A DNA stretch of 64,000 nt from Candidatus Tectimicrobiota bacterium. GTDB taxonomy: Bacteria; JACPUC01. Below the pieces are notes generated by a model. That model did no database searches. It was not told where the DNA came from and saw only the letters and a program-made list of their open reading frames with translations. The position numbers and the translations under genes are program-made. How positions within the stretch are numbered: position 1 is the first letter of the stretch; every line of letters starts with the position of its first letter. Where the stretch lies: contig JACPUC010000001.1 of NCBI GenBank assembly GCA_016192455.1, forward strand, positions 186,001 to 250,000, read 5' to 3'. Shown here in pieces: positions 5,964 to 41,669 of this stretch.

Positions 5964-6482
5964 TCAACGCGGCGGCGCCGTTGGTCCACCGCCCGCCGGC
6001 GCCTCCGTGAGCTCGATGTGCACGGTCACATCATCCGAAAGCGCCAGGCGTCGCGGCGCGCTTGGCGCAAACTTCTCCTTCTCCACGCGCAGCCAGAAGC
6101 GGTCGCCCCAGTTCTTGCTCGTATAGGTGAGCGGCGTGCGGCCGTTGCCGATCGTCAGGGGAACGAAGGTCGTGCCGTCCTGCGACCAGAAAATCCGCCC
6201 GTCCGACGGCGCGCTGGTCACCGTGAGGGTTCGTGCACGCTGCGTCGCCGCCTCGCGGGCCTGCCGCAGCACCGTCTCGGGCAACTGCCCGAGGTAGATG
6301 CGCCCGCAGGCCGGCAACCACAGCGTGGAGAGAGAGAAGAGGAGGATGAGGAGCACCGGCGACCGCCCGCGTCCGCGTCGTCCGGGATTCACGGGACGCG
6401 AGGGCGCCGAGCAAGCAGGCTCCACCAACTCAGCGGGTGTTCGCGACGGCATCCCACGCTGGGCTGATACCCTCTGATTCAT
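5964..6482 (-). CDS. Small lipoprotein of unknown function in the cytochrome cluster
   Basis: The product is about 172 residues. After an unusually long basic N-terminus comes a hydrophobic stretch ending in the lipobox L-P-A-C, so it should be a lipidated envelope protein. The mature part contains one beta-rich segment (T-V-T-S-A-P-S-D-G-R-I-F-W-S and the following strands), reminiscent of PEGA-like surface modules, but I do not recognise a family. ATG 6482, ATG 6452 and an upstream start at 6494 are all possible, and none has a strong ribosome-binding site. It lies upstream of the three-haem cytochrome gene on the same strand and may be an accessory anchor for the electron-transfer complex. 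Confidence 0.6.
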   Translation of the reverse strand: MNQRVSAQRGMPSRTPAELVEPACSAPSRPVNPGRRGRGRSPVLLILLFSLSTLWLPACGRIYLGQLPETVLRQAREAATQRARTLTVTSAPSDGRIFWSQDGTTFVPLTIGNGRTPLTYTSKNWGDRFWLRVEKEKFAPSAPRRLALSDDVTVHIELTEAPAGGGPTAPPR

Positions 6483-6657
6483 CTCAATCTGCACGGTTGC
6501 CCACCATCGCTATCTTCGTCGCGGAGCGAGAATCCGCGGCACAACCAGGGATGACTCTGGCCTGGCGAACGCGACCCGAACCCTGGGAGGCCGCCCCGCC
6601 GACATCCGGTGGGAGAAGTGAGCGTTCCCGCCGGCTGCCGGTCGTGGGTGTGGTTGG

Positions 6658-8727
6658 TTAATTGTTCGGCGCGCCGGCCGCCACCCAGGCGGTGATGGTG
6701 GCGATCGCCTCGTCGGACAGCGGCGTCCTGCCGAGGGGCATCCGCTCCCCAACGGCGGCAATGCCGCGGATTTTCTGCACCAGGTAGCTGTTATCGGGGT
6801 CGCCGGGTTGGATGCGGTTCAGCGTGTTGACCTCGACGCTCCGCATGCCGACGATGTTGCTGAACGCGTTCCCCTGCGACAGGTTCTGGTTGAGCATGGC
6901 GCGCGGCCCGGAATGGCACCCGGCAAGGGCGCAGTTCGCCGTGAAGATGGGTTGCACGTTGGCGCTGAAACTGACGGTTGGCTGGGGAGGCGGTGCCTCT
7001 TCAACAGGGCCCGCATCCGGCGTGGGTTCCACCACTGGAGTTGGTTCAGCAATCGGCTCCGTGTCGGAGACGCCAGGGATGTTTGGGAAGGCCTTGAGGT
7101 AGAAGGTATGTGACCAGAGCATTTCGTTGGAGAGATGCATGGCCCCGGCACTATCAAAGTAGGTGTTGGTAACCATCCACGTCTTGGTTACGGGGTTGAT
7201 CGTAATCTCGGTAGCGAAGACTGGCGCCACGCCATTCTTTCCACCTGCCATTGGCGGGAGTGGAAGGGTGGGATACCGGTGGTCGATGTCGCGCAGCCGC
7301 TCGAATGCACCAATGCTTGAAGACGGTGGAGCCGAGCGTTTCAATCCACTCTGATTCACGGCGCTCTCAAAGAAGTTCAACCAGAGCGCCTTCACGGTTG
7401 TCTGGTTGACCGCATCGCCGCCTATTTGATTTAACGCGTTCAAAGCGCCGAGGATCGCGGCGATATCATCGACATGGTAGACGTGTTGACTTGTGAAGTA
7501 TCCGTGCGTCCAATCGTACTCAGCCACCAAGGCGTTGAAGACTTCGGCCGCGGCGGTCAGGAAGCGTGGCGCCCCGCTCGTGCGCGCCGCTTCGATGAGG
7601 CCCCGCACCGCATAGGCTTTCGAGCGCACCGTCGGTTTCTCGGCGGCGATGAGGGCATCTCCGAATGCCGCAATCTTGGCGAGAGCCGCGGCGCGGTTGG
7701 CGTCGTTGGTCGTATAGGCGGCGTACCACGCCAGGCCGGTGGCGGCGACCGCCTGTTCGATCACCGTGCTGGGCGGCTCGCCCGCGGCGATCTCCGCAAA
7801 CAGCGAGTCGGCGGCGCTGCCGAACATGGCGCCCATCTGAGCATCCCGGTAACGGTTCGTGTCGCTGCCATCGAGGGCGTCCCGGCTCTTCACGTCGGCG
7901 AGGTCACTCAACGCCTGCAGCATGACGTAGGTGCCGATCTTGCTGCTGACGAACGGCGTGGCGTCTGCCGCACCGGTCCGCCAGTTCATCCACTCCATGG
8001 CTTGCATGGCGGCCTCCATGGCGAGGACCATGCCGATGAAGCGCTGCTGGGCGCCGAAGGTGGCCGTGGGCGCGCCGAAATGCGGCTCGAAATGGAAGAG
8101 CCGAGCCCATTCGATCTCTTTGATCATGGTGTAGGCTTGCGCTTCGACGGTCACCGTCGTATCAAACGAGCTGGCATCCCAGCGGAAATTGCTGAAATCA
8201 CCCGAGTTGCCGTTATTCTCGTTCACCCAGACGGGATTGCCTGATTTGTAGACTGCTCGAAGCAGGGCCGGGTTTGTCGGGGGCATGGCCGCGTCGCCAT
8301 CGTTGGGATCGGGATCGAACATTGGAATCGCGGCCATCACCTGAGCCATATCCGGCGCAAAGGTTACGCCGAGGCCCGAGGTCATCACCAGTTCGCCCAA
8401 GTTGTACCGCGAGTACCAATACCCTTCATTCACCAGCGCGCGCTCGTCGAACTCCGGATTGTGGCCGGCAAGGAGCGACTCCTGCCTGCCGAAGCTCCCG
8501 TTGAACCTCCAAGATAAGCTCGCTTCGTCCCACTCGAACTCGGCCCAGAAACGATCATTGGGCGTTGCGTTGAGTCCGAGATTATAGATGCGGATAGTTT
8601 GGTCGGCGACACCCGTGGTCCGCACAAAGGCGTCGCTGAAATTCACCAAGCCCTGCGCCCTTGCATCAAGGCTCAGCACCAGAACAACGAGAACGGAGCA
8701 CGACAGGGTAAGCAAGTAGCGTCTCAT
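6658..8727 (-). CDS. Large secreted protein with C-terminal cytochrome c domain using a CX4CH motif
   Basis: The 689-residue protein has a clean signal peptide (M-R-R-Y-L-L then a hydrophobic core to A-R-A-Q). A long Trp/Tyr/Ala-rich, mostly helical region of no recognised family occupies residues 25 to about 555. A Pro/Glu-rich linker follows at about 560-590, and then a cytochrome-like domain. There the haem-attachment motif reads C-A-L-A-G-C-H, with four residues between the cysteines instead of two. A Met ligand candidate lies in E-R-M-P-L-G, close to the C-terminus. Such CX4CH domains are known in some secreted cytochromes of deltaproteobacteria and relatives. GAAAGGG about 8 nt before ATG 8727 supports the start. 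The fusion suggests that the large domain, perhaps an oxidoreductase or polymer-binding module, exchanges electrons through the C-terminal haem. Confidence 0.78.
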   Translation of the reverse strand: MRRYLLTLSCSVLVVLVLSLDARAQGLVNFSDAFVRTTGVADQTIRIYNLGLNATPNDRFWAEFEWDEASLSWRFNGSFGRQESLLAGHNPEFDERALVNEGYWYSRYNLGELVMTSGLGVTFAPDMAQVMAAIPMFDPDPNDGDAAMPPTNPALLRAVYKSGNPVWVNENNGNSGDFSNFRWDASSFDTTVTVEAQAYTMIKEIEWARLFHFEPHFGAPTATFGAQQRFIGMVLAMEAAMQAMEWMNWRTGAADATPFVSSKIGTYVMLQALSDLADVKSRDALDGSDTNRYRDAQMGAMFGSAADSLFAEIAAGEPPSTVIEQAVAATGLAWYAAYTTNDANRAAALAKIAAFGDALIAAEKPTVRSKAYAVRGLIEAARTSGAPRFLTAAAEVFNALVAEYDWTHGYFTSQHVYHVDDIAAILGALNALNQIGGDAVNQTTVKALWLNFFESAVNQSGLKRSAPPSSSIGAFERLRDIDHRYPTLPLPPMAGGKNGVAPVFATEITINPVTKTWMVTNTYFDSAGAMHLSNEMLWSHTFYLKAFPNIPGVSDTEPIAEPTPVVEPTPDAGPVEEAPPPQPTVSFSANVQPIFTANCALAGCHSGPRAMLNQNLSQGNAFSNIVGMRSVEVNTLNRIQPGDPDNSYLVQKIRGIAAVGERMPLGRTPLSDEAIATITAWVAAGAPNN

Positions 8728-31274: not shown

Positions 31275-31502
31275 GGGTCGGACGGCCGCCGCGCCGGCGC
31301 CTCCTCGCGGTTCAGGCGCGGCGGCATCCCCTCCGACGCGCCTCGCTGTCGGGGCGCTGGCGAGACACCGCATCAGCGGCAGGGCGCGTGCCGGCGGTCG
31401 CAAGCCGGCCGACGGTGCGCAGCCGGGGCCGGGGATCGGTGCTTGCCCAGCCGCGACCCACTCCGTGGCCCGGCTGCCTCCCTGCTTATAGCTGGAGATT
31501 CC

Positions 31503-32036
31503 ATGGCCATCCTGCCGCCGTTGAACTTTCAGCGCTGGATCGACGAGCACCGCCACCTCTTGAAGCCGCCGGTTGCAAGCTGCGACGTCTATGCGCCCGG
31601 CGACTTCTTCGTCCTCGTCATCGGCGGCCCGAATCGGCGCAACGACTTCCACGTCGGGCCGGGCGAGGAGCTCTACTACCAGGTCGAGGGGGAGGCGGAT
31701 ATCCTCTACCTCGATGCCGAGGGGCGGCGCCAGGTGGCCCATCTTGGGCCGGGGGACATGTGGCTGCTGCCGGCCTGGGTGCCGCACCGTCCCCAGCGCA
31801 AGCCCAACTCCGTCGGCCTTGTCGTCGAGCGCAAACGCCGCGCCGACGAGCTGGACCGCTTTGCCTGGCACTGCGAGCGCTGCGGTCTCCTCCTCCATGA
31901 AGTGAAGCTGCACCTGGCGGAGATGGAAAACCTGATGAAGCCGATGATGGAGTCGTTCTACGCCAACGAAGAGCTGCGCACCTGCAAGCGCTGCGGCGCC
32001 GTCCTGCCGGAGCCGAAGCCGTATGGCGTGCCGTAG
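31503..32036 (+). CDS. nbaC: 3-Hydroxyanthranilate 3,4-dioxygenase
   Basis: The 177-residue cupin-fold enzyme keeps the Fe(II) ligands H50, E56 and H95 (N-D-F-H-V-G-P-G-E-E and V-P-H-R). It also has the C-terminal rubredoxin-like four-Cys iron site of the bacterial form (C124-x2-C127 and C161-x2-C164). It opens the ring of 3-hydroxyanthranilate to 2-amino-3-carboxymuconate semialdehyde in tryptophan/kynurenine or 2-nitrobenzoate degradation. ATG 31503 follows GGAG by about 7 nt. Other kynurenine-pathway genes are not in the window; the next genes are hydantoinase/oxoprolinase subunits. It might instead serve a related aminophenol-type substrate. Confidence 0.88.
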   Translation: MAILPPLNFQRWIDEHRHLLKPPVASCDVYAPGDFFVLVIGGPNRRNDFHVGPGEELYYQVEGEADILYLDAEGRRQVAHLGPGDMWLLPAWVPHRPQRKPNSVGLVVERKRRADELDRFAWHCERCGLLLHEVKLHLAEMENLMKPMMESFYANEELRTCKRCGAVLPEPKPYGVP

Positions 32037-32095
32037 CGTGGCTCACCTGGCAGGGCCTGTGGATGAGCCGCCGGCAATGCGTGGAAAGAGGCGTG

Positions 32096-34174
32096 ATGAA
32101 GTTTCGCCTTGGCATAGATGTCGGGGGGACGTTTACCGACTTCGTGCTCATGGATGGTGAGGGAGCGCTCTGGCCCTTCAAGGTGCCGACGACGCCGGCG
32201 GACCCCTCCCAGGGGCTCCTCGAGGGGCTGCGCGCCATCGCGGCGGCGCGGCGGGTTGAGCTGCGCGACTTCCTGCGCGCGGTCGAGGTGATCGTCCACG
32301 GCACCACGGTGACGACCAACGCCCTGCTCACCGGCCAGGGGGCCAGGACCGGCCTGCTCACCACGAAGAACTTCCGCGATGCCCTGGAGATGCGGCGCGG
32401 CATCCGCGAGGAGCGTTATAACAACCGCTACCGTCCGCCCGACCCCCTGGTGCCGCGCGACCTGCGGCTGCCCGTCGAGGAGCGCCTCGACCACACCGGC
32501 GCGGCGCTCACGGCGTTGCGCGACGACGACGTGCGCGCCGCCTGCGCCGCCTTCCGGGACGAAGGGGTGCGGGCGGTGGCCGTCTGCTTCCTGCACGCCT
32601 ACGCCAACGGCGCGCATGAGCAACGCGCCGCGGAGCTCGTCCGCGAGCACCTCCCCGACGCCTACGTCACGGTCTCCTCCGAGCTGCTGCCGCAGCCGCG
32701 CTTCTACGACCGCATCAGCACCACCGTCGTCAACAGCTACGTCGGGCCGGTATTGCGGCGCTACCTGCGCAGCCTGACCGCCAGCCTCGCCGACGCCGGC
32801 TTCACGGGCCACCTCCTCGTCATGGCCTCGAACGGCGGCGTCCTGACGCCCGAGGTGGCGCAGCGCATGGCCGCCACCTCGCTCCTCTCCGGCCCCGCCG
32901 CCGGTCCGCTTGCTGGAGCGCGCTTCGCCGCCCATCACCAGCACGCGGACTGCATCACCGTGGACATGGGGGGCACAAGTTTCGACGCGGCCCTGGTGAA
33001 GGACGGGGCCCCCTTGACGGTGCGCGACGCCCGCCTGAACCGCCACCTCGTCGCCCTGCCGATGCTCGGCATCCACACCATCGGCGCGGGCGGCGGCAGC
33101 ATCGGCTGGATCGACGCGGGCGGCTTCCTGCGCATGGGACCGCAGAGCGCCGGGGCCGATCCGGGGCCGGCCTGCTACGGCCGCGGCGGCGACCTGCCCA
33201 CCGACACCGACGCCTGCCTGGTCCTCGGCTACCTCAACCCGGACTACTTCCTCGGCGGCGAGCTGCGCCTCGATGTCGAGGCGGCGCGCCGGGCCATCCG
33301 GCGCCGCATCGCCGAGCCGCTGGGCCTCGGCGTCGAAGCGGCGGCGGCGGGGATGTTCCGCATCATCTGCGTCAACATGGCGGCCGGCATCCGCGAGGTG
33401 ACGGTCGAGCGCGGCCTGGACCCGCGCGATTTCCCCCTCGTCGTCGCCGGCGGCGCGGGGCCGGTACACGCCGCCGCCATCGCCCGCGAGCTGGACATCC
33501 CGCGCCTCATCGTGCCGAAGGAGTCCTCCCTCTTCTGCGCCTACGGCATGCTCCTCTCCGACTTCAAGCACGACTTCGTCAACGCCGCTTACGGACGCCT
33601 CGCGGAGCTGGCGCCAACGGTCTTCCCGCGGGTGTTCCGCGACCTTGAGGAGCGGGGCGCGCGGCTGCTGGTGCAGGAGGGCATCGCCGCCGAAGCGGTG
33701 GAGCTTCGCCACGCCATTGACCTGCGCTACGAAGGCCAGATCGACGAGGTGGAGGTGCAGATTACGCGCCGCGAGGTGGAGACCGCCGACGTCACCTCCA
33801 TCACGCGGAAATTCCATGAGCGGCACGATCAGCTCTACGGCTACGCCCTCGAGGGGGAGACCGTCTGGATGCTCAATGCGCGGCTCACCTGCATCGGCCA
33901 CACCAGCAAGCCGCCGCAGAAGCCAGCCGAGCCGTCCGGCGAGCCGATCGAGGCGCTGCGCAAGGGCTGGCGGCGCGTCGCCCTGCCCGGCGACGGCGAG
34001 TTCCGCAAGGTGCCGGTGTACGACGGCGACCGCATGGGCGCCGGTCACAGCCTGCGGGGGCCGGCCCTCGTCGAGCAGGTGACCACCACCTTGCTCCTCC
34101 CCCCCGGCTTCAACCTGCACTGCGACCCCTACGGCAGCTACGTGCTGACGGCGGCGCGGGAGGGGTCACCGTAA
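32096..34174 (+). CDS. hyuA: Hydantoinase/oxoprolinase subunit A
   Basis: The 692-residue product begins with the ATP-binding G-I-D-V-G-G-T-F-T-D-F signature. It also has H-G-T-T-V-T-T-N-A-L-L (about 75), D-M-G-G-T-S-F-D (about 290) and G-A-G-G-G-S-I (about 330), all hallmarks of the HyuA/5-oxoprolinase/acetone-carboxylase alpha family. ATG 32096 has GGAAAGAGG upstream. The subunit works with HyuB in ATP-dependent opening of cyclic amides such as N-methylhydantoin or 5-oxoproline. Its natural partner hyuB begins only at 35914, because a 1.7-kb AT-rich cassette separates the two. The stop codon overlaps an ATG (TAATG), as if it had once been coupled to a following gene. Confidence 0.92.
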   Translation: MKFRLGIDVGGTFTDFVLMDGEGALWPFKVPTTPADPSQGLLEGLRAIAAARRVELRDFLRAVEVIVHGTTVTTNALLTGQGARTGLLTTKNFRDALEMRRGIREERYNNRYRPPDPLVPRDLRLPVEERLDHTGAALTALRDDDVRAACAAFRDEGVRAVAVCFLHAYANGAHEQRAAELVREHLPDAYVTVSSELLPQPRFYDRISTTVVNSYVGPVLRRYLRSLTASLADAGFTGHLLVMASNGGVLTPEVAQRMAATSLLSGPAAGPLAGARFAAHHQHADCITVDMGGTSFDAALVKDGAPLTVRDARLNRHLVALPMLGIHTIGAGGGSIGWIDAGGFLRMGPQSAGADPGPACYGRGGDLPTDTDACLVLGYLNPDYFLGGELRLDVEAARRAIRRRIAEPLGLGVEAAAAGMFRIICVNMAAGIREVTVERGLDPRDFPLVVAGGAGPVHAAAIARELDIPRLIVPKESSLFCAYGMLLSDFKHDFVNAAYGRLAELAPTVFPRVFRDLEERGARLLVQEGIAAEAVELRHAIDLRYEGQIDEVEVQITRREVETADVTSITRKFHERHDQLYGYALEGETVWMLNARLTCIGHTSKPPQKPAEPSGEPIEALRKGWRRVALPGDGEFRKVPVYDGDRMGAGHSLRGPALVEQVTTTLLLPPGFNLHCDPYGSYVLTAAREGSP

Positions 34175-34201
34175 TGAATTATCACCATGACAGTCTGCGT
34201 T

Positions 34202-34210
34202 TGCTATACT
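34202..34210 (+). promoter_or_regulatory. Extended -10 promoter of the cassette
   Basis: TG-C-TATACT (TG at 34202-34203, hexamer at 34205-34210) is an extended -10 element 77 nt before the first cassette gene. No good -35 box is seen, which extended -10 promoters tolerate. The leader contains the 8-bp palindrome GAACGTTC near 34250, a possible small operator core. Confidence 0.45.
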
Positions 34211-34286
34211 CAACTTGAAGCATCTTCCTGCATAGAGGGTCTGCCGAGAACGTTCGGTTGAGCGCCGTAGAGGGGGCGAACATCTC

Positions 34287-35027
34287 ATGGGACGTAAATA
34301 CAAGAATCCTCCGCTTCTTGAAGTTGTCTGTGAATTTCGCTTCGATCCAAATTCACCTTGGGATCTTGCTATTCCTGGTCTCATTTATGAAAAGCTACGC
34401 AACACCTTCCCCAAGAGAAGGCAGACTAAGTTATATGAAGGTGCTGTCTCCGCAGGACCCGAAGGTGTGCAACAGCAGATTAAGGAGAAAGAAGGCCTAC
34501 GATTTTTGCGAGAAGATGGGGCAGCGTTTCTTCAGTTGAGCCCCCATCTCCTGGAAGTTCATCATCTAAAACCCTATCCCACCTGGGAAGGCTTTCTACC
34601 TCTGATTGATAAGTCTATAAGAGTTTACATCGATATTGCTAGTCCTTCGAGGCTACAACGAATTGGATTGCGCTATATTAACCGGATTGATCTTCACGGA
34701 GTTGAGGTGAAATTGGAAGATAACTTTAATCTCTATCCATTCGTTGGTTCCCAGCTAGGGAATTTCGGTCACTTCTTTCTTGGACTCAAGATTCCCTTTG
34801 AACGTGGAAGAGATCTTCTTCAAATTCAGATGGCCATGTTGATGCCAGACAAGCCTGACGTCATCCCGATTCTGCTCGACCTGGATTATTTTCTCGCGCA
34901 ACCTGGCCAATTGAAGCTGGGGGATCAAATTGCTTGGCTAAATCAAGCGCATGAACAGATTGAACTTAAATTTGAAGGCTGTTTGAAGGACAGCCTGCGA
35001 GAACAGTTCGAGGAGGTAAAGAGTTAA
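34287..35027 (+). CDS. TIGR04255-like protein, first gene of the inserted cassette
   Basis: The 246-residue protein opens with K-N-P-P-L-L-E-V-V-C-E-F-R-F, the conserved N-terminus of the sporadically distributed TIGR04255 family. It continues with the family pattern of a strand ending in R-I-G-L-R-Y-I-N-R-I at about 127-136. There is no signal peptide or membrane helix. The biochemical role of the family is not established to my knowledge. It overlaps the next gene by one base (TAATG), implying translational coupling, and AGGAGG precedes that junction. AT-rich codons and patchy family distribution both suggest horizontal transfer. A defence, toxin-antitoxin or regulatory role is possible because of the HEPN-like partner. 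Confidence 0.72.
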   Translation: MGRKYKNPPLLEVVCEFRFDPNSPWDLAIPGLIYEKLRNTFPKRRQTKLYEGAVSAGPEGVQQQIKEKEGLRFLREDGAAFLQLSPHLLEVHHLKPYPTWEGFLPLIDKSIRVYIDIASPSRLQRIGLRYINRIDLHGVEVKLEDNFNLYPFVGSQLGNFGHFFLGLKIPFERGRDLLQIQMAMLMPDKPDVIPILLDLDYFLAQPGQLKLGDQIAWLNQAHEQIELKFEGCLKDSLREQFEEVKS

Positions 35028-35503
35028 TGGGCCTACTTGTTCCTGACCCAGCGATGACGGAAGAGGGGTTTTCATTCTCTCCACCGTCAGCCGCGAATTG
35101 GATCGACGAAACACGCTCTGTACAGGCCTCCACTTCCGAATCGCTCCAGCTCCCTAAAGACCCTTGGAGCGAGTCGGTTTGGATTAACTTGCTCAGATCG
35201 TTCTATCAGTTCAGTAATACCACTGACGTCATAACTTTCTTGATAGTGAATCCCTTTCTGATTGGGCTCCTACTTGATGCTACAGAACAAATTAGGGAAT
35301 GCGTCGGTCAGAATGTCGAGCTTGTGCTTAGGTTTGTTTCTGAACCAGAAGAAGATGATTCTGAGGAGCTTTTTGTGTTCATTATGACGGGACTTCCCGT
35401 AGAAGAAGCCCTGAAGCGTTTGAATGTTCTCCATGAGAAATGGTGGCTTGAAGCTTCCTCTCGTGGTCGTTGCTTACTAAACATCGGCTTGGGGTGGACA
35501 TAA
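35027..35503 (+). CDS. Conserved protein of unknown function, second gene of the cassette
   Basis: The 158-residue acidic protein has a disordered Ser/Pro-rich N-terminus (1-50) and a folded C-terminal part. The latter contains F-V-S-E-P-E-E-D-D-S-E-E-L-F-V-F-I and V-E-E-A-L-K-R-L, then E-K-W-W-L-E-A-S. The strand-then-helix pattern ending in W-W-L-E-A resembles small proteins that often precede HEPN-like genes, but I cannot name a family. It starts at ATG 35027 inside the stop region of the upstream gene, with AGGAGG 10 nt before. The stop is 2 nt before the HEPN-like gene. It might be an antitoxin-like partner; this is inference from position only. Confidence 0.68.
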   Translation: MGLLVPDPAMTEEGFSFSPPSAANWIDETRSVQASTSESLQLPKDPWSESVWINLLRSFYQFSNTTDVITFLIVNPFLIGLLLDATEQIRECVGQNVELVLRFVSEPEEDDSEELFVFIMTGLPVEEALKRLNVLHEKWWLEASSRGRCLLNIGLGWT

Positions 35504-35505
35504 GT

Positions 35506-35865
35506 ATGTTCGACTGGGGTAGCTATCTCATATTCGCCAAGGAGCTCGTGGAACGCCGCGATGAAGCCGCACAGCGATCCGCCGCCAGTCGAGCGTACTA
35601 TGCCGCCTTTTGTAAGGCGCGAAATCGCCTCCGACAAAAGGGAGTTATACATAAAGAAGACAGAATTGGTCATACGAGGCTCTGGAGGATCTACAGGGCG
35701 GATCCGGAATTCGCCACTCGTCGTATTGGGTTAAATGGTGATCATATGCATGAAATAAGAAAAGAGGTTGATTATGAAGACACAGTTGTCGACTTACCTT
35801 ATAAGGTTAAGCTAGAAATCCAGATGGCAGAGGAATTACTTGAACAGTTGCTTTCGCTTCCTTGA
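35506..35865 (+). CDS. HEPN-like domain protein, third gene of the cassette
   Basis: The 119-residue all-helical protein contains A-A-S-R-A-Y-Y-A-A-F at residues 27-35, the typical second helix of HEPN-domain proteins, and I-R-K-E-V-D-Y-E-D near 84-92 in the place of the usual L-R-N-x-A-D-Y. An R-x6-H pair (R73 to H80) is present, but it lies before the canonical position, so RNase activity is uncertain. HEPN proteins are commonly toxins paired with antitoxins or nucleotidyltransferases, or RNA-cleaving effectors. ATG 35506 is 2 nt after the preceding stop, so all three genes form one coupled operon. No nucleotidyltransferase is encoded here. Confidence 0.7.
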   Translation: MFDWGSYLIFAKELVERRDEAAQRSAASRAYYAAFCKARNRLRQKGVIHKEDRIGHTRLWRIYRADPEFATRRIGLNGDHMHEIRKEVDYEDTVVDLPYKVKLEIQMAEELLEQLLSLP

Positions 35866-35913
35866 AAGATAAAGGGCGGAAAAAGGTTATCAACTAGCCG
35901 AAGAAAGTCTGCA

Positions 35914-37680
35914 ATGGAAATAGCCCCAGCCTGTCAAGAAACCCAGTCCAACCCCATCGACCCCATCCTCCTGCCGGTGCTGCAGCGGCGGCTGCGTCTG
36001 ATCTGCGAGGAGATGGGCTACAGCCTGCTGCGCACCTGCCGCTCGCCGATCCTCAACCAGGCGCGCGACTTCGTCACCGGGCTGTTCGATCACCGCGGCC
36101 GCATGCTCGAGCAGTGCGACTACATCCCCGTGTTGGCCTTCGCCCTGCAACCGGTCTGCGCCCACCTTGTGGACTACTTCGGCGACGACCTCCACGAGGG
36201 GGACGTGATCATCCACAACGATGTCTATACGGGCGGCAACCAGATGGCCGACGTGGCCATCTTCAAGCCGATCTTCGTCGATGGCGAGCAGGTCGCCTGG
36301 GCCGCCTGCAAGGGGCACCAGGCGGACATCGGCGGGGCCCTGGCGGGGAGCTACAACCCGCAGGCGCGCGAGGTCTGGCAGGAGGCGCTGCGCATCCCGC
36401 CGGTGAAGCTCTACGACGCCGGGCGCCTGCGGCGCGACGTCTGGGACCTCATCTTCGCCAACATCCGCTTCGAGATCGTGCAGCACGACATCACGGCGGC
36501 CATCGGCGGCTGCACGGTGGGCGAGCGTGAGGTGATCAAGCTGGTGCGGCGCTACGGCCTCGCTGCCTTCCGCGCCCACGCCGAGGAGCTCTTCGCCTGG
36601 ACCGAGCGCATGATGCGCGCCGAGATCGGGCGCATCCCCGACGGCTCCTACATCGGCGAGAGCTTCATGAACGATGACGGCGTCACCGAGGGCTCCCGCT
36701 ACCGCATCGTCGTCACCGTCACCGTGCGGGGCGAGGAGATCACCTTCGACTACACCGGCACGGACGCGCAGGCGCCGGCCTTCACGAACTGCTCTTACGG
36801 CTCGGCGGCGGCGGCCACGCTGCTCACCTTCCTCATGCACGTCAACCCCGACCTGCCGCGCAACGCCGGCATGCTGCGCCCCATCCGCATCTCCATCCCG
36901 GAAGGCACCTTCCTCAACGCCCGCTATCCCGCCGCCACGACCTTCGGCAACCAGATCGCCGATCCGCACTCGGAGGCGATCTTACGGGCCCTGGCGCAGG
37001 CCATCCCGGAGCGCGTCACGGCGGCCTGGAACCGCCTGCTGGCGCCGCGCCTCACCGGCCGCGACCCGCGCACCGGCAAGGTCTACCACGACGTCCTCTT
37101 CCTGGCCCTGAAGGGCGGCTCCGGCGCCACCCACGGGGTGGACGGCTATGACCACATCGGCACCATCGGCTGCGCCGGCGGCATCCTGGCGCAGGACTAC
37201 GAGATGCTCGAATTGCAGGACCCCCTCTTCCTCCTCAAGCATGAGTACCTGCCCGACTCGGCCGGCGCCGGCGAGTGGCGCGGCGGCCTGGGGGTGGAGA
37301 CCGTGGTGCGGCTGGAGGGCGACGAGACGACGATCGTCGTCCATGGCGACGGCATGCGCGAGGGAGCCTTCGGGCTGTTCGGCGGCACGGCGGGCGCGCC
37401 CAACAAGTTGGAGGTGACGAGCCCCGACGGCGGCACGCGGCGGCCGCGCTGCAAGGACCTCCTCGAGCGCCTGCCGCGCGGCACCATTCTGCACCAGCGG
37501 CAAGGAGGCGGGGGCGGCTACGGCGACCCGCGCCGCCGGCCGGCGGAGCTGGTCCTCCAAGAGGCGCGCAACGGCGTCATCTCCGTGCGGCAGGCCCGCG
37601 AGCAGTACGGCGTGGTCATCGACCCCGCAAGCTGGAGCGTCGATGTCCAGGCGACCGCAGCCCTGCGCGGCGCCGGCTGA
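35914..37680 (+). CDS. hyuB: Hydantoinase/oxoprolinase subunit B
   Basis: The 588-residue protein matches HyuB: I-D-P-I-L-L-P-V-L-Q-R-R-L near the start, G-D-V-I-I-H-N-D-V-Y-T-G-G near residue 100 and G-H-Q-A-D-I-G-G near 135, the region with the likely metal-binding residues, and a Gly-rich C-terminus (G-G-G-G-G-Y-G-D-P). It is the catalytic partner of HyuA. ATG 35914 lacks a good ribosome-binding site, and the first 14 or so residues (M-E-I-A-P-A-C-Q-E-T-Q) precede the region usually conserved. Both fit displacement of the original start by the cassette upstream. The frame is otherwise complete. Confidence 0.9.
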   Translation: MEIAPACQETQSNPIDPILLPVLQRRLRLICEEMGYSLLRTCRSPILNQARDFVTGLFDHRGRMLEQCDYIPVLAFALQPVCAHLVDYFGDDLHEGDVIIHNDVYTGGNQMADVAIFKPIFVDGEQVAWAACKGHQADIGGALAGSYNPQAREVWQEALRIPPVKLYDAGRLRRDVWDLIFANIRFEIVQHDITAAIGGCTVGEREVIKLVRRYGLAAFRAHAEELFAWTERMMRAEIGRIPDGSYIGESFMNDDGVTEGSRYRIVVTVTVRGEEITFDYTGTDAQAPAFTNCSYGSAAAATLLTFLMHVNPDLPRNAGMLRPIRISIPEGTFLNARYPAATTFGNQIADPHSEAILRALAQAIPERVTAAWNRLLAPRLTGRDPRTGKVYHDVLFLALKGGSGATHGVDGYDHIGTIGCAGGILAQDYEMLELQDPLFLLKHEYLPDSAGAGEWRGGLGVETVVRLEGDETTIVVHGDGMREGAFGLFGGTAGAPNKLEVTSPDGGTRRPRCKDLLERLPRGTILHQRQGGGGGYGDPRRRPAELVLQEARNGVISVRQAREQYGVVIDPASWSVDVQATAALRGAG

Positions 37681-37808: not shown

Positions 37809-40800
37809 ATGGGCCTCTACGTTGGCATCGATACCGGCGGCACGTTCACCGATTTCGTGGTGCTGGACGAGTCCGGCGCCGGGCAGGTGTTCAAGATTCA
37901 CAGCATCCCCGACAACCCCGCCCAGGCGGTGCTCGAGGGGCTGCGCCAGTTGGCCGTGCGGCGCGGCGCGACGCCGCGGGACTTCCTGGCCGCCGTTCAC
38001 CACCTCTTCCTCAGCACCACCATCAGCACCAACGCCGTCATCACCGGCGGCGGCGCGCGGGTGGGGCTGCTGACCACGAAGGGGTTCCGCGACCTCCTGG
38101 AGATGCGCCGCGGCTCGCGCGACAGCCTCTACGACAACAAGACGCCGCCGCCCCCGCCGCTGGTCCCCCGTTGCCTGCGCCTGCCGGTGGAGGAGCGCAT
38201 GGCAGACGACGGCAGCGTCGTCCTGCCCTTGCAACGTGAGGACGTGGCGCAGGCGGTGGCGACCCTCCAGCACGAAGCCGTGGAGGCCGTCGCCGTCGCC
38301 TACTTGCACTCCTACTGCAACCCGGCCCACGAGCGCGAAACCCTCACCCTCCTCGCCGAGCTCTGGCCCGAGGTGTTCGTTACGGCGTCGAGCGAGGTGG
38401 CGCCGGCCATCGGCATCTACGAGCGCACCTCGACGACGGTGCTGAACGCCTACTGCGGGCCGCTCGTCAAGGCGTTCCTCGCCGGCCTCGAGCTGACGCT
38501 GCGGGAGAACGGCTTCCAGGGACAGGCCTTCATCATGCAGTCGAACGGCGGCATGATCTCACCCACCCAGGCGGCCGCGTTCCCCGTGCGCACCGTCCTC
38601 TCCGGCCCTGCCGCGGGCGCCATGGCCGGCTGCGCCTGGTCGGCCAGGTTGGGGATGCGCAACTGCATCACCCTCGACATGGGGGGTACGAGCACGGACG
38701 TCTGCCTCATCGAGGAGGGCGATCCCCTGGTGACGACCGAGGCGGCGATCGGGCCGGGGCGCTACCGGTCGATTTTGCCGAGCCTCGATATCAAGACCAT
38801 CGGCGCCGGCGGCGGCAGCATCGCCTGGCTGGACGGCGGCAAGCTGCTGCATGTGGGGCCGCAGAGCGCCGGCGCCGTGCCGGGTCCCGTCTGCTACGGT
38901 CTGGGAGGCAGCCAGCCGACGGTGACCGACGCCAACCTCGTCCTCGGCTTCCTCAGCCCGGAGCACTTCTTCGGCGGCTCCCTGCGCCTTGATCGGCAGG
39001 CGGCGCGGCGGGCCATCGAGGAACAGATCGCGGCGCCCCTCGGCCTGGACGTGGAGACGGCGGCCTTCGGCATCACCACCCTGGCGAACACGAACATGGC
39101 CACGGCGGTCCGCGAGGTGTCGCTGGATCGCGGCTACGACCCGCGCGACTTCGCCCTCATCGTGGGCGGCGGCGCGGGGCCGCTGCACGCCTGCGCGGTG
39201 GCGAGCGAGATCGGCATCGAGACGGTGATCGTGCCGCGCGACGCCTCCGCCTTCAGCGCCCACGGCCTGCTGGCCACCGACCTGCGACACGACTTCGTGG
39301 CCACCTTCACGGGGCTGCTGGAACCGGCCAACGCCGCACCCCTCGCAGCGCTCTTCCGCGACCTCGAGCAGCGGGCGCGCACCGAGCTGCTGCGCGAGGG
39401 GGTGCCCGAGAGCGCGCTGCGCTTCACCCCCTTCCTCGACCTGCGCTACAAAGGGCAGTACCACGAAATCTGCATCCCCCTCGCGGCGGCGGACGTGGGC
39501 GCGGGGGACTTCGCCGGCACCCGAGCCACCTTCCATGCCCGCCACGACCAGCTTTACGGCTACGCCGTGAAGGAGGACCCGATCGAGGTGGTGAACCTGC
39601 GGCTTGCCGCGGTGGGCAAGCTCTCGCAGCCGGCCTGGCGCGACGAGCCGCGCCAGGGCGCCTCGGCCGAGGCGCGCCCCGGTCGCGGCGCCCGCGTCTA
39701 CCTCGGCGCCCAGGCGGGGTTCCGCACCGTCCCGGCGTACGAGGGCGAGGCGCTTGCCGCCGGCTTCAGCACGGCGGGACCGGCGTTGATCTACCACCCG
39801 TACACGACCATCCTCGTGCCCCCTGCCTTCACGGTGACCCTGGAGCCGCACGGCAACTACCGGCTGACGCGCCGGCAGGGCGCGGCGGAGCCGTCGCGCG
39901 CTCGCCAGGCTACGCGACAGACCACCGCGGCGGCCGCGGCGGCGGGCATCGACCCGATCCTCACGTCGGTCATCGGCAAGAACCTGGAGAGCATCGCCCA
40001 CGAGATGGGCATCGCCATGACGCGCACCACCAGCTCGCCCTTCTTCCAGGTGAAGGACATGTGCACCGCCATCCTCGACGAGCGCGGCCGCATCCTCTGC
40101 CAGAAGGAGTACCTCCCCCTCATGGCCTACACCTTCCCGACGATGCTCGAGGCGCTCCTGGAGTTCTTCGGGGAGGAGGTGGGGCCGGGCGACGTCTTCA
40201 TCACCAACGATGTCTTTTACGGCGGCAACCAGCTCCAGGATTTGGCTTTCTTCAAGCCCGTCTTCCTGGAAGGGGAGTTGCTCTTCTGGACGGCCACGAA
40301 GGGGCACCAGGTTGACTTGGGCGGGCCGATCCTCGGCGGCTACAATCCGCGGGCGCGCGAGGTCTGGCAGGAGACCCTGCGCATTCCGCCGCTGAAGGTC
40401 TACGAGCGCGGCGTGCTGCGCCGGGACGTGTGGAACTTCCTGATGGAGAACACCCGCCTGCCGCGCTTGGTGGGGCGCGATTTTCAGGCCATGATCGGCG
40501 GTTGCATCGTGGGGGAGCGGCGCCTCCACGTCCTGCTCGAGCGCTACGGCAAGGCCCGCCTGCGGGCCCACGTCGAAGCGCTCCTCGACTCCTCGGAGAC
40601 GATGACACGGGCCGCGATCGAGCGCCTGGCGGACGGCGTCTACCGCGCCGACGCCTCGACGCAGGACGACGGCCAGGACAAGGAGGCGGTCTACACCGCG
40701 CGCCTAGCGGCAATGGTCGACGGCAGCTCGATCACCTTCGACTTCAGCGGCAGCGACCCGCAGGCCCCCGGCTGGATCAACGGCGTCTATGCCACCTCCC

Positions 40801-41669
40801 TGTCGGCCACGGTCTCGACCTTCTTCATGTGCGTCGATCCGCTTATCCCGCGCAACGAGGGTTCCCTGCGGCCGGTGCGGGTGCGCGTCCCCGAGGGGAG
40901 CTTCCTGAACGCCCGCTACCCCGCCGCCACGGTGCGGGGGAACTTCACCTGCAACGACGTCATCGGCGACTGTGTCATGAAAGCACTGGCGCAGATGATG
41001 CCGGAGCGCGTCACCGCCTGCTGGGCGAGGTCGCTCACCTGCTCGATCGGCGGCCTGAACCCGCGCTCGCGGGAGACCTACTACGACGTCATGTTCATGT
41101 CCTACTGCGGCGGCGGCGGGGCCACGGAGGGCGCCGACGGCTGGAGCTACATCGGCATGCTCACCCTCGGCGGCGGTTTGACGGTGCAGGACCTCGAAAT
41201 CCATGAGCGCAGCCGGCCGCACGTCTTCCACGAGCTCGAGTACTGGCCCGACTCCGGCGGCGCCGGCTGCTGGCGCGGCGGGCTCGGGGCCCGCAGCCGC
41301 TTCACGGTGTCGGCGCCCAACCCCGAGATCATCATGCGCGGCGATACGGTGAACCAGTCCGACGGCCTGTTTGGGGGGCATGCCGGCAAGGCAGGGGAGT
41401 GCCGCATGGGGGATGCGTCGGGGGAGCTGGTCGCGGTGCCGGTGAACGAGCGGTACAACCCCAAGAGCGGCGTGCAGATCGAGTTTCGGTCTCCCGGCGG
41501 CGGCGGCTTCGGCGAGCCGCTGCGGCGCGATGCCGCCCTGGTTGCCGAGGACGTGCGCCACGGCTACGTCAGCCGGAGGGCGGCATTGGAGCTCTATGGC
41601 GTCGAGCTTCACACCGACGGCGGGCTGGATGTTGAAGCCACCGAACGCCGCCGCCAGGCAAGGAGATGA
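37809..41669 (+). CDS. Fused HyuA-HyuB hydantoinase/5-oxoprolinase
   Basis: The 1,286-residue protein joins a full HyuA domain (residues 1 to about 690, with G-I-D-T-G-G-T-F-T-D-F, D-M-G-G-T-S-T-D and G-A-G-G-G-S-I) to a full HyuB domain (about 712-1286, with I-T-N-D-V-F-Y-G-G and G-H-Q-V-D-L-G-G). An Ala/Arg/Thr linker of about 20 residues connects them. Eukaryotic and some bacterial 5-oxoprolinases have this architecture. AGGAGCG precedes ATG 37809. It lies 128 nt after hyuB and is probably cotranscribed. Its substrate may be 5-oxoproline, N-methylhydantoin or another cyclic amide. Both catalytic halves look intact. Confidence 0.9.
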   Translation: MGLYVGIDTGGTFTDFVVLDESGAGQVFKIHSIPDNPAQAVLEGLRQLAVRRGATPRDFLAAVHHLFLSTTISTNAVITGGGARVGLLTTKGFRDLLEMRRGSRDSLYDNKTPPPPPLVPRCLRLPVEERMADDGSVVLPLQREDVAQAVATLQHEAVEAVAVAYLHSYCNPAHERETLTLLAELWPEVFVTASSEVAPAIGIYERTSTTVLNAYCGPLVKAFLAGLELTLRENGFQGQAFIMQSNGGMISPTQAAAFPVRTVLSGPAAGAMAGCAWSARLGMRNCITLDMGGTSTDVCLIEEGDPLVTTEAAIGPGRYRSILPSLDIKTIGAGGGSIAWLDGGKLLHVGPQSAGAVPGPVCYGLGGSQPTVTDANLVLGFLSPEHFFGGSLRLDRQAARRAIEEQIAAPLGLDVETAAFGITTLANTNMATAVREVSLDRGYDPRDFALIVGGGAGPLHACAVASEIGIETVIVPRDASAFSAHGLLATDLRHDFVATFTGLLEPANAAPLAALFRDLEQRARTELLREGVPESALRFTPFLDLRYKGQYHEICIPLAAADVGAGDFAGTRATFHARHDQLYGYAVKEDPIEVVNLRLAAVGKLSQPAWRDEPRQGASAEARPGRGARVYLGAQAGFRTVPAYEGEALAAGFSTAGPALIYHPYTTILVPPAFTVTLEPHGNYRLTRRQGAAEPSRARQATRQTTAAAAAAGIDPILTSVIGKNLESIAHEMGIAMTRTTSSPFFQVKDMCTAILDERGRILCQKEYLPLMAYTFPTMLEALLEFFGEEVGPGDVFITNDVFYGGNQLQDLAFFKPVFLEGELLFWTATKGHQVDLGGPILGGYNPRAREVWQETLRIPPLKVYERGVLRRDVWNFLMENTRLPRLVGRDFQAMIGGCIVGERRLHVLLERYGKARLRAHVEALLDSSETMTRAAIERLADGVYRADASTQDDGQDKEAVYTARLAAMVDGSSITFDFSGSDPQAPGWINGVYATSLSATVSTFFMCVDPLIPRNEGSLRPVRVRVPEGSFLNARYPAATVRGNFTCNDVIGDCVMKALAQMMPERVTACWARSLTCSIGGLNPRSRETYYDVMFMSYCGGGGATEGADGWSYIGMLTLGGGLTVQDLEIHERSRPHVFHELEYWPDSGGAGCWRGGLGARSRFTVSAPNPEIIMRGDTVNQSDGLFGGHAGKAGECRMGDASGELVAVPVNERYNPKSGVQIEFRSPGGGGFGEPLRRDAALVAEDVRHGYVSRRAALELYGVELHTDGGLDVEATERRRQARR

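Follow-up and report, generated by a model that had tools for sequence, protein, structure and literature searches.

A three-gene TIGR04255–HEPN cassette between hydantoinase genes belongs to a recurrent module that may be toxin-antitoxin-like

The window analysed here, a stretch of 64,000 nucleotides from a Candidatus Tectimicrobiota bacterium, carries three coupled, AT-rich genes between hyuA (stop at 34174) and hyuB. These genes, called A, B and C below, form a real module that recurs in the same order in other genomes. The reading that we favour, with modest confidence, is that the cassette (34175–35913) is a horizontally acquired, tripartite toxin-antitoxin-like system, in which C would be a toxin acting as an RNase, B would inhibit it, and A would be a third component acting via a tail on B. 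The features of the locus are:

32063–34174, + strand: hyuA-like host gene (N-methylhydantoinase A) upstream of the insertion; an ORF that aligns with hyuA regions of this genome's paralogs, start codon uncertain
34175–34286, + strand: AT-rich leader of the cassette, containing the extended −10-like sequence TGCTATACT at 34202–34210 (candidate promoter)
34287–35027, + strand: gene A, TIGR04255 family protein of 246 aa (NCBIfam, 143 bits), predicted two-repeat beta-saddle in a TBP/guanidino-kinase-like arrangement (AlphaFold2 pLDDT 90; Foldseek and VIA)
35027–35503, + strand: gene B, putative antitoxin or adaptor of 158 aa, a new family (42-member alignment; C is the next gene in 42 of 47 B loci; 43 aligned members without a Pfam family)
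35027–35164, + strand: N-terminal extension of B (ca. 46 aa), predicted to be disordered (pLDDT ca. 50–65), proposed docking tail for A; present in 57 of 57 B with A
35506–35865, + strand: gene C, putative RNase toxin of 119 aa, HEPN-T (AF0298-like); profile matches to 9xbd, 36ht (retron-Kva2 HEPN) and 2hsb; PF05168
35596–35601, + strand: Y31-Y32 of C, aligned with Y41-Y42 of retron-Kva2 HEPN (PMC13405049); Y31 in 40 of 40 sequences, Y32 in 38 of 40
35671–35673, + strand: H56 of C, putative catalytic histidine, aligned with H64 of retron-Kva2 HEPN; in 40 of 40
35758–35775, + strand: R85xxxD89Y90 of C, putative catalytic arginine, with a DY motif, instead of RX4-6H; R85 in 39 of 40, D89 in 38, Y90 in 39
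35914–37680 (ATG at 35914), + strand: hyuB-like host gene downstream of the insertion; an ORF; 24 matches to HyuB in the genome

The sequence-only reading had placed three coupled, AT-rich genes exactly between hyuA and hyuB, and the ORF positions, junctions and composition agree with it. A and B overlap by one nucleotide (TAATG), and B and C are separated by 2 nt. The GC content of the cassette is 0.464, compared to 0.674 in the flanks and the rest of the window, and GC3 is 0.43–0.49 in its genes, compared to 0.93–0.94 in hyuA and hyuB. Among 1.6-kb stretches of the window the cassette is the richest in AT, and no other equals it. The interruption was judged against the HyuB paralogs of the same genome – 15 others were read, and in 12 of these hyuA is 33–331 nt upstream of HyuB, compared to 1.74 kb here. 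Given this spacing and the contrast in GC and GC3, insertion into a hydantoinase operon is the simplest account of the cassette. No transposase ORF was seen between hyuA and hyuB, as the first reading had it; no target-site duplication was found in 33.9–36.2 kb, no terminator at the locus, and no Rfam match in 33–37 kb. The cassette had also been credited with its own extended −10 promoter. The −10-like sequence is present but is not among the calls of the promoter scan, so the promoter stays a candidate. The host genome has a large number of HyuB matches (ca. 24). Within the window, a second hydantoinase (37809–41669) has hyuA and hyuB fused as one ORF of 1286 aa, and an ORF at 31443–32036 is similar, in a by-eye reading only, to 3-hydroxyanthranilate 3,4-dioxygenase.

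A search of 84,980 species genomes with a four-sequence alignment of A (A4) yielded 56 related loci. With a copy on a Thermus brockianus plasmid added, and with five loci at contig ends and a fragment of 26 aa left out, the total is 51. B and then C are immediately downstream of A in 41 of these 51 loci (including L039, whose contig ends soon after B) – a proportion that describes the A subfamily of the window rather than all of TIGR04255, because A4 was built from A proteins with B–C neighbours. The A-B-C loci span Chloroflexi, Acidobacteria, Planctomycetes, Nitrospirae, Thermotogae, WOR-3, methanogens (archaea) and others, and their genes are closely spaced (mostly −35 to +20 nt). The module that had been suspected from the window alone was found again, outside hydantoinase operons, and it is relatively AT-rich elsewhere too: in 35 of 39 loci its GC content is below that of the host (Wilcoxon p = 1e-9). 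Pairwise distances among the A-B-C loci are correlated between A and C (Mantel r 0.74), B and C (0.69) and A and B (0.60, the lowest), a covariation that reflects shared ancestry in part. Occurrence is sporadic, in ca. 2–6% of genomes in the samples, and mostly as one copy per genome. Among viral contigs, 22 pattern matches to A were obtained and none was confirmed; B and C of the window had no match in plasmids, and a relative of C in phages was marginal only (E = 9e-3, a Methanobacteriales virus).

Individual copies have a variety of contexts and states. The T. brockianus plasmid pTB1 (L011, 4120–8258) has A-B-C between an annotated CopG/VapC pair and cas6, and its C gene (6303–6695) is missing from the plasmid's gene table. 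A decayed copy in L010 (1489–2004) has an internal deletion that fuses the start of A to the end of B, with C lost; L092 is also decayed, and L024, from Chloroflexus islandicus, has a stop within A. A Calditrichaeota contig (L018, 6001–9190) has a second B–C pair ca. 1.7 kb downstream of the first, with space for a second A between them, likely a tandem duplication.

The tightest pair in the module, and its obligate-looking core, is B–C. A profile of B was run on 400 genomes from the phylum of an Anaerolineae genome, 292 from that of a cyanobacterium, and 297 from that of an Acidobacteriota genome. C is directly downstream in 42 of the 47 new B loci, while A is upstream in only 12; the five loci without C include one at a contig end (L081) and one whose B has a stop (L109). 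That B, the middle protein, partners the HEPN protein, as proposed earlier, has strong support, since C directly follows B with or without A. Sampling of 121 genomes around C gave six matches to C of at least 79 bits, all in genomes with a B–C pair, and the weaker HEPNs (ca. 50 bits or less) were a separate group.

B is a new family of HEPN partner. The protein in the window has no match in Pfam, NCBIfam or PADLOC, none of the 43 aligned members has a Pfam family, and no recognisable antitoxin domain was found. Its AlphaFold2 model has a confident C-terminal alpha/beta domain (residues 47–158), with the first 46 residues disordered. Fold comparison gave no significant match, and weak OsmC/KH-like matches were dropped. 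The length of the N-terminal extension is associated with A: all 57 B proteins with A have at least 20 residues ahead of the core (range 27–106), while 14 of 35 without A fall below 20 (Fisher 2e-7). These lengths depend on the choice of start codon, and the longest ORF was used for A-less loci, so this choice biases against the difference seen; double sampling of a few loci left the result unchanged. Some A-less B proteins keep an extension, and several of these have another gene upstream. Cyanobacterial B–C pairs (L108, L111, L112, L114 and L123) have a different conserved gene of 228–236 aa instead of A, and other long-tailed, A-less B proteins are preceded by genes of 127 aa (L096) and 208 aa (L098). 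B–C is exchangeable as to its first gene.

The only match of C from the window taken alone is a weak one to PADLOC HEPN_IX (E = 0.0026), and PF05168 is not matched. The family as a whole bears out the earlier call of a HEPN-like third gene: 30 of 43 members match PF05168 (best 3.7e-8), and the profile of C matches solved HEPN chains – 9xbd (3e-9), retron-Kva2 HEPN 36ht (3e-5) and AF0298 2hsb (0.0027). The RX4-6H geometry expected by the sequence-only reading did not hold up; the canonical motif is absent from the C family, in which an alternative H...RxxxDY site is found, with R85xxxD89Y90 in place of the motif. The residues conserved among 40 sequences are R29-x-Y31-Y32, H56 and R85xxxD89Y90, and C of the window retains all of those at the site (SRxYY...H56...R85xxxDY). 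AF0298-like HEPN-T proteins have D in place of the motif H and a second conserved H upstream (PMC3710099; PDB 2hsb). The C family has the same D and, upstream of its R...D motif, an invariant H56; it differs as a subgroup tied to B. C reads, by its conserved residues, as a HEPN protein of AF0298 type and a putative RNase.

The HEPN protein of retron-Kva2 is of the same subtype. It degrades tRNA, and the substitutions Y40-42A, H64A and R122A each abolish its defence against T5 (PMC13405049). H56 of C aligns with H64, and YY with Y41-Y42. R122 is beyond the aligned region, so R85 is inferred to be its equivalent from the order of the residues. This type IX retron and the cassette share a YY/H/R composite site, the lack of R-phi-X3-H and, by analogy, a short HEPN held by partner proteins, as proposed for C. 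They differ in that the cassette showed neither a reverse transcriptase nor a winged-helix protein, and no retron RNA. With only three genes between hyuA and hyuB and no Rfam match around them, membership in the retrons was rejected, and A and B did not match any retron protein in a search of PDB sequences. The cassette is also similar to type VII HEPN-MNT systems, in which a HEPN gene is beside a small presumed inhibitor, but C is without the canonical RX4-6H; membership was rejected because B and its 43-member alignment have no nucleotidyltransferase match.

The identification of the first gene as TIGR04255 was confirmed at 143.4 bits (cut-off 30), with residues 4–242 aligned over the whole profile (1–252 of 252). 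The AlphaFold2 model of A is a two-repeat beta-saddle with helices. Foldseek ranked TBP first (prob 1.00, TM ca. 0.3) and VIA-align ranked guanidino kinases at the top (Z up to 8.2). The likeness to TBP, guanidino kinases and AdoMetDC may be only a common arrangement and gives no function. SecB did not appear among the fold matches listed, which speaks neither for nor against a likeness. An unnamed viral protein, A0A515MGR4, also matches the fold of A (E = 6e-7, TM 0.45–0.53). A search of PDB sequences with the A profile up to E 10 gave a single designed protein and no SecB. As this protein, 9hnh, is a designed solenoid, the match was taken as chance and rejected. TIGR04255 is named in none of the papers searched, a set with few subscription papers or preprints, and the family has had no assigned function.

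TIGR04255 heads other compact cassettes as well, as seen in one phylum, sampled with 297 genomes, and in the 10 loci of the A4 search that remain. HEPN, PIN and MazF toxins are well known, and the latter two recur here: the third gene encodes a PIN protein in L209 and L059 (PF01850) and a PemK/MazF-like protein in L206 (PF02452, E = 2e-13), all above cut-off. In L215 it is a DUF7689 gene (PF24738). L217, L219 and L229 are HicB/HicA-like by eye only, with no family match, and L211–L213, L223 and L224 have an unnamed 'WDGYGA' set, also seen by eye. Homologues of the middle protein of one A-PIN cassette were not found in plasmids. Because its cassettes end in HEPN, PIN, PemK/MazF-like, DUF7689 and unnamed genes, TIGR04255 is exchangeable as to effector. 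That A is an exchangeable part, heading cassettes with other toxins too, was missed by the first reading. The association of TIGR04255 with toxins, the A-B-C module, and B as a family all appear to be undescribed within the literature searched, which covered few subscription papers or preprints.

Among the closest known likenesses is that to toxin-antitoxin-chaperone (TAC) systems. In these, the antitoxin owes its dependence on a SecB-like chaperone to a ChAD extension, which chaperone-independent antitoxins lack (PMC5105189), and in CmdTAC of E. coli a phage capsid protein captures the chaperone (PMC11618068). Like HigBA1-SecB(TA) of M. tuberculosis and CmdTAC (PMC5105189, PMC11618068), the cassette has three genes. 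Its third component is found with several unrelated families (HEPN, PIN and MazF-like for TIGR04255; HigA, MqsA and HicB antitoxin types for TAC), and a disordered extension on the presumed antitoxin is often missing where the third component is absent. This extension is tied to the third component in all 57 B with A, and lacking in 14 of 35 A-less B. Unlike TAC, the third component is TIGR04255, not SecB-like by sequence, and is encoded by the first gene of the cassette; the extension is N-terminal in B, rather than C-terminal; and the putative toxin is a HEPN RNase. Because of the non-SecB sequence of A and the N-terminal position of the extension, the cassette was not filed as TAC, though it is TAC-like in its proposed logic.

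If the cassette is a tripartite toxin-antitoxin-like system, C would be a HEPN ribonuclease of AF0298/retron-IX type, with a composite site of H56, R85 and YY at a homodimer interface. It would cleave cellular RNA, probably tRNA, causing growth arrest. The conserved C-terminal domain of B would keep C inactive, and A would bind the disordered N-terminal tail of B, making the stability or activity of B dependent on A. The trigger would come when A is lost or is captured, for instance by a phage product, and this would free C. A role in phage defence is plausible for the cassette.

C aligns with a retron type IX effector, and its PADLOC match is to HEPN_IX. This suits a dedicated anti-phage complex, with no toxin-antitoxin pair, in which A would do the sensing directly, B would serve as an adaptor, and C would be an RNase effector without activity before assembly or triggering. 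A and the alternative upstream proteins in cyanobacteria resemble exchangeable first components of such a complex, and the T. brockianus copy is near cas6 and a VapC locus. However, many B–C pairs are alone, without A or another obvious sensor, and a PADLOC scan (PADLOC-DB of 2023) of 84 neighbours of B–C loci found no clear excess over 84 control genes, with type I/IIG restriction-modification genes slightly commoner. This explanation is unlikely, though it deserves some weight. A non-toxic RNA-processing or regulatory operon, spread horizontally, with C serving host physiology as a specific RNase or an RNA-binding protein, would fit the lack of the canonical RX4-6H motif and the usual single copy per genome. 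Sporadic occurrence, AT-rich composition and the decayed copies (L010, L024 and L092) suit toxin systems better, as do the TIGR04255 cassettes ending in PIN and MazF-like toxins, and such an operon is improbable. Odd composition, and nothing further, favours the notion that A, B and C are unrelated AT-rich passengers adjacent by chance; it is refuted by their recurrence, with order and coupling repeated in dozens of unrelated genomes and with correlated divergence, and can be dismissed.

The tripartite toxin-antitoxin-like reading can be widened from the cassette to the whole of TIGR04255. The presence of this family at the head of cassettes that end in toxins suggests a testable role for it, as a shared third component of toxin modules, and a specific prediction is that B depends on A via its N-terminal tail. 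Tentatively, and at a confidence just short of even, TIGR04255 could be a promiscuous, non-SecB control subunit that makes two-gene toxin-antitoxin pairs – HEPN, PIN, PemK/MazF-like and several uncharacterised – tripartite by docking on an extension of the antitoxin. The TAC principle would then have evolved a second time, independently, and B would be a new family of HEPN antitoxin.

Some of the cassettes headed by TIGR04255 end in proteins of other kinds. In L004, L006, L009, L054, L204, L216, L220 and L225, TIGR04255 and a small gene are followed by an unnamed 'TQSCDL...YREHLSQAFARFFMRVGLP' protein, or a remote version of it, with no match in Pfam; these are another undescribed type of cassette. 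The 'SCDL' protein of L004, L006, L054 and L220 was recognised by eye only. In L200, L205, L207, L208 and L215, the genes after TIGR04255 encode a HEAT-like protein and then a DUF7689 protein in which C and H residues are conserved (by eye apart from the DUF7689 match), and this last protein is possibly a papain-like effector.
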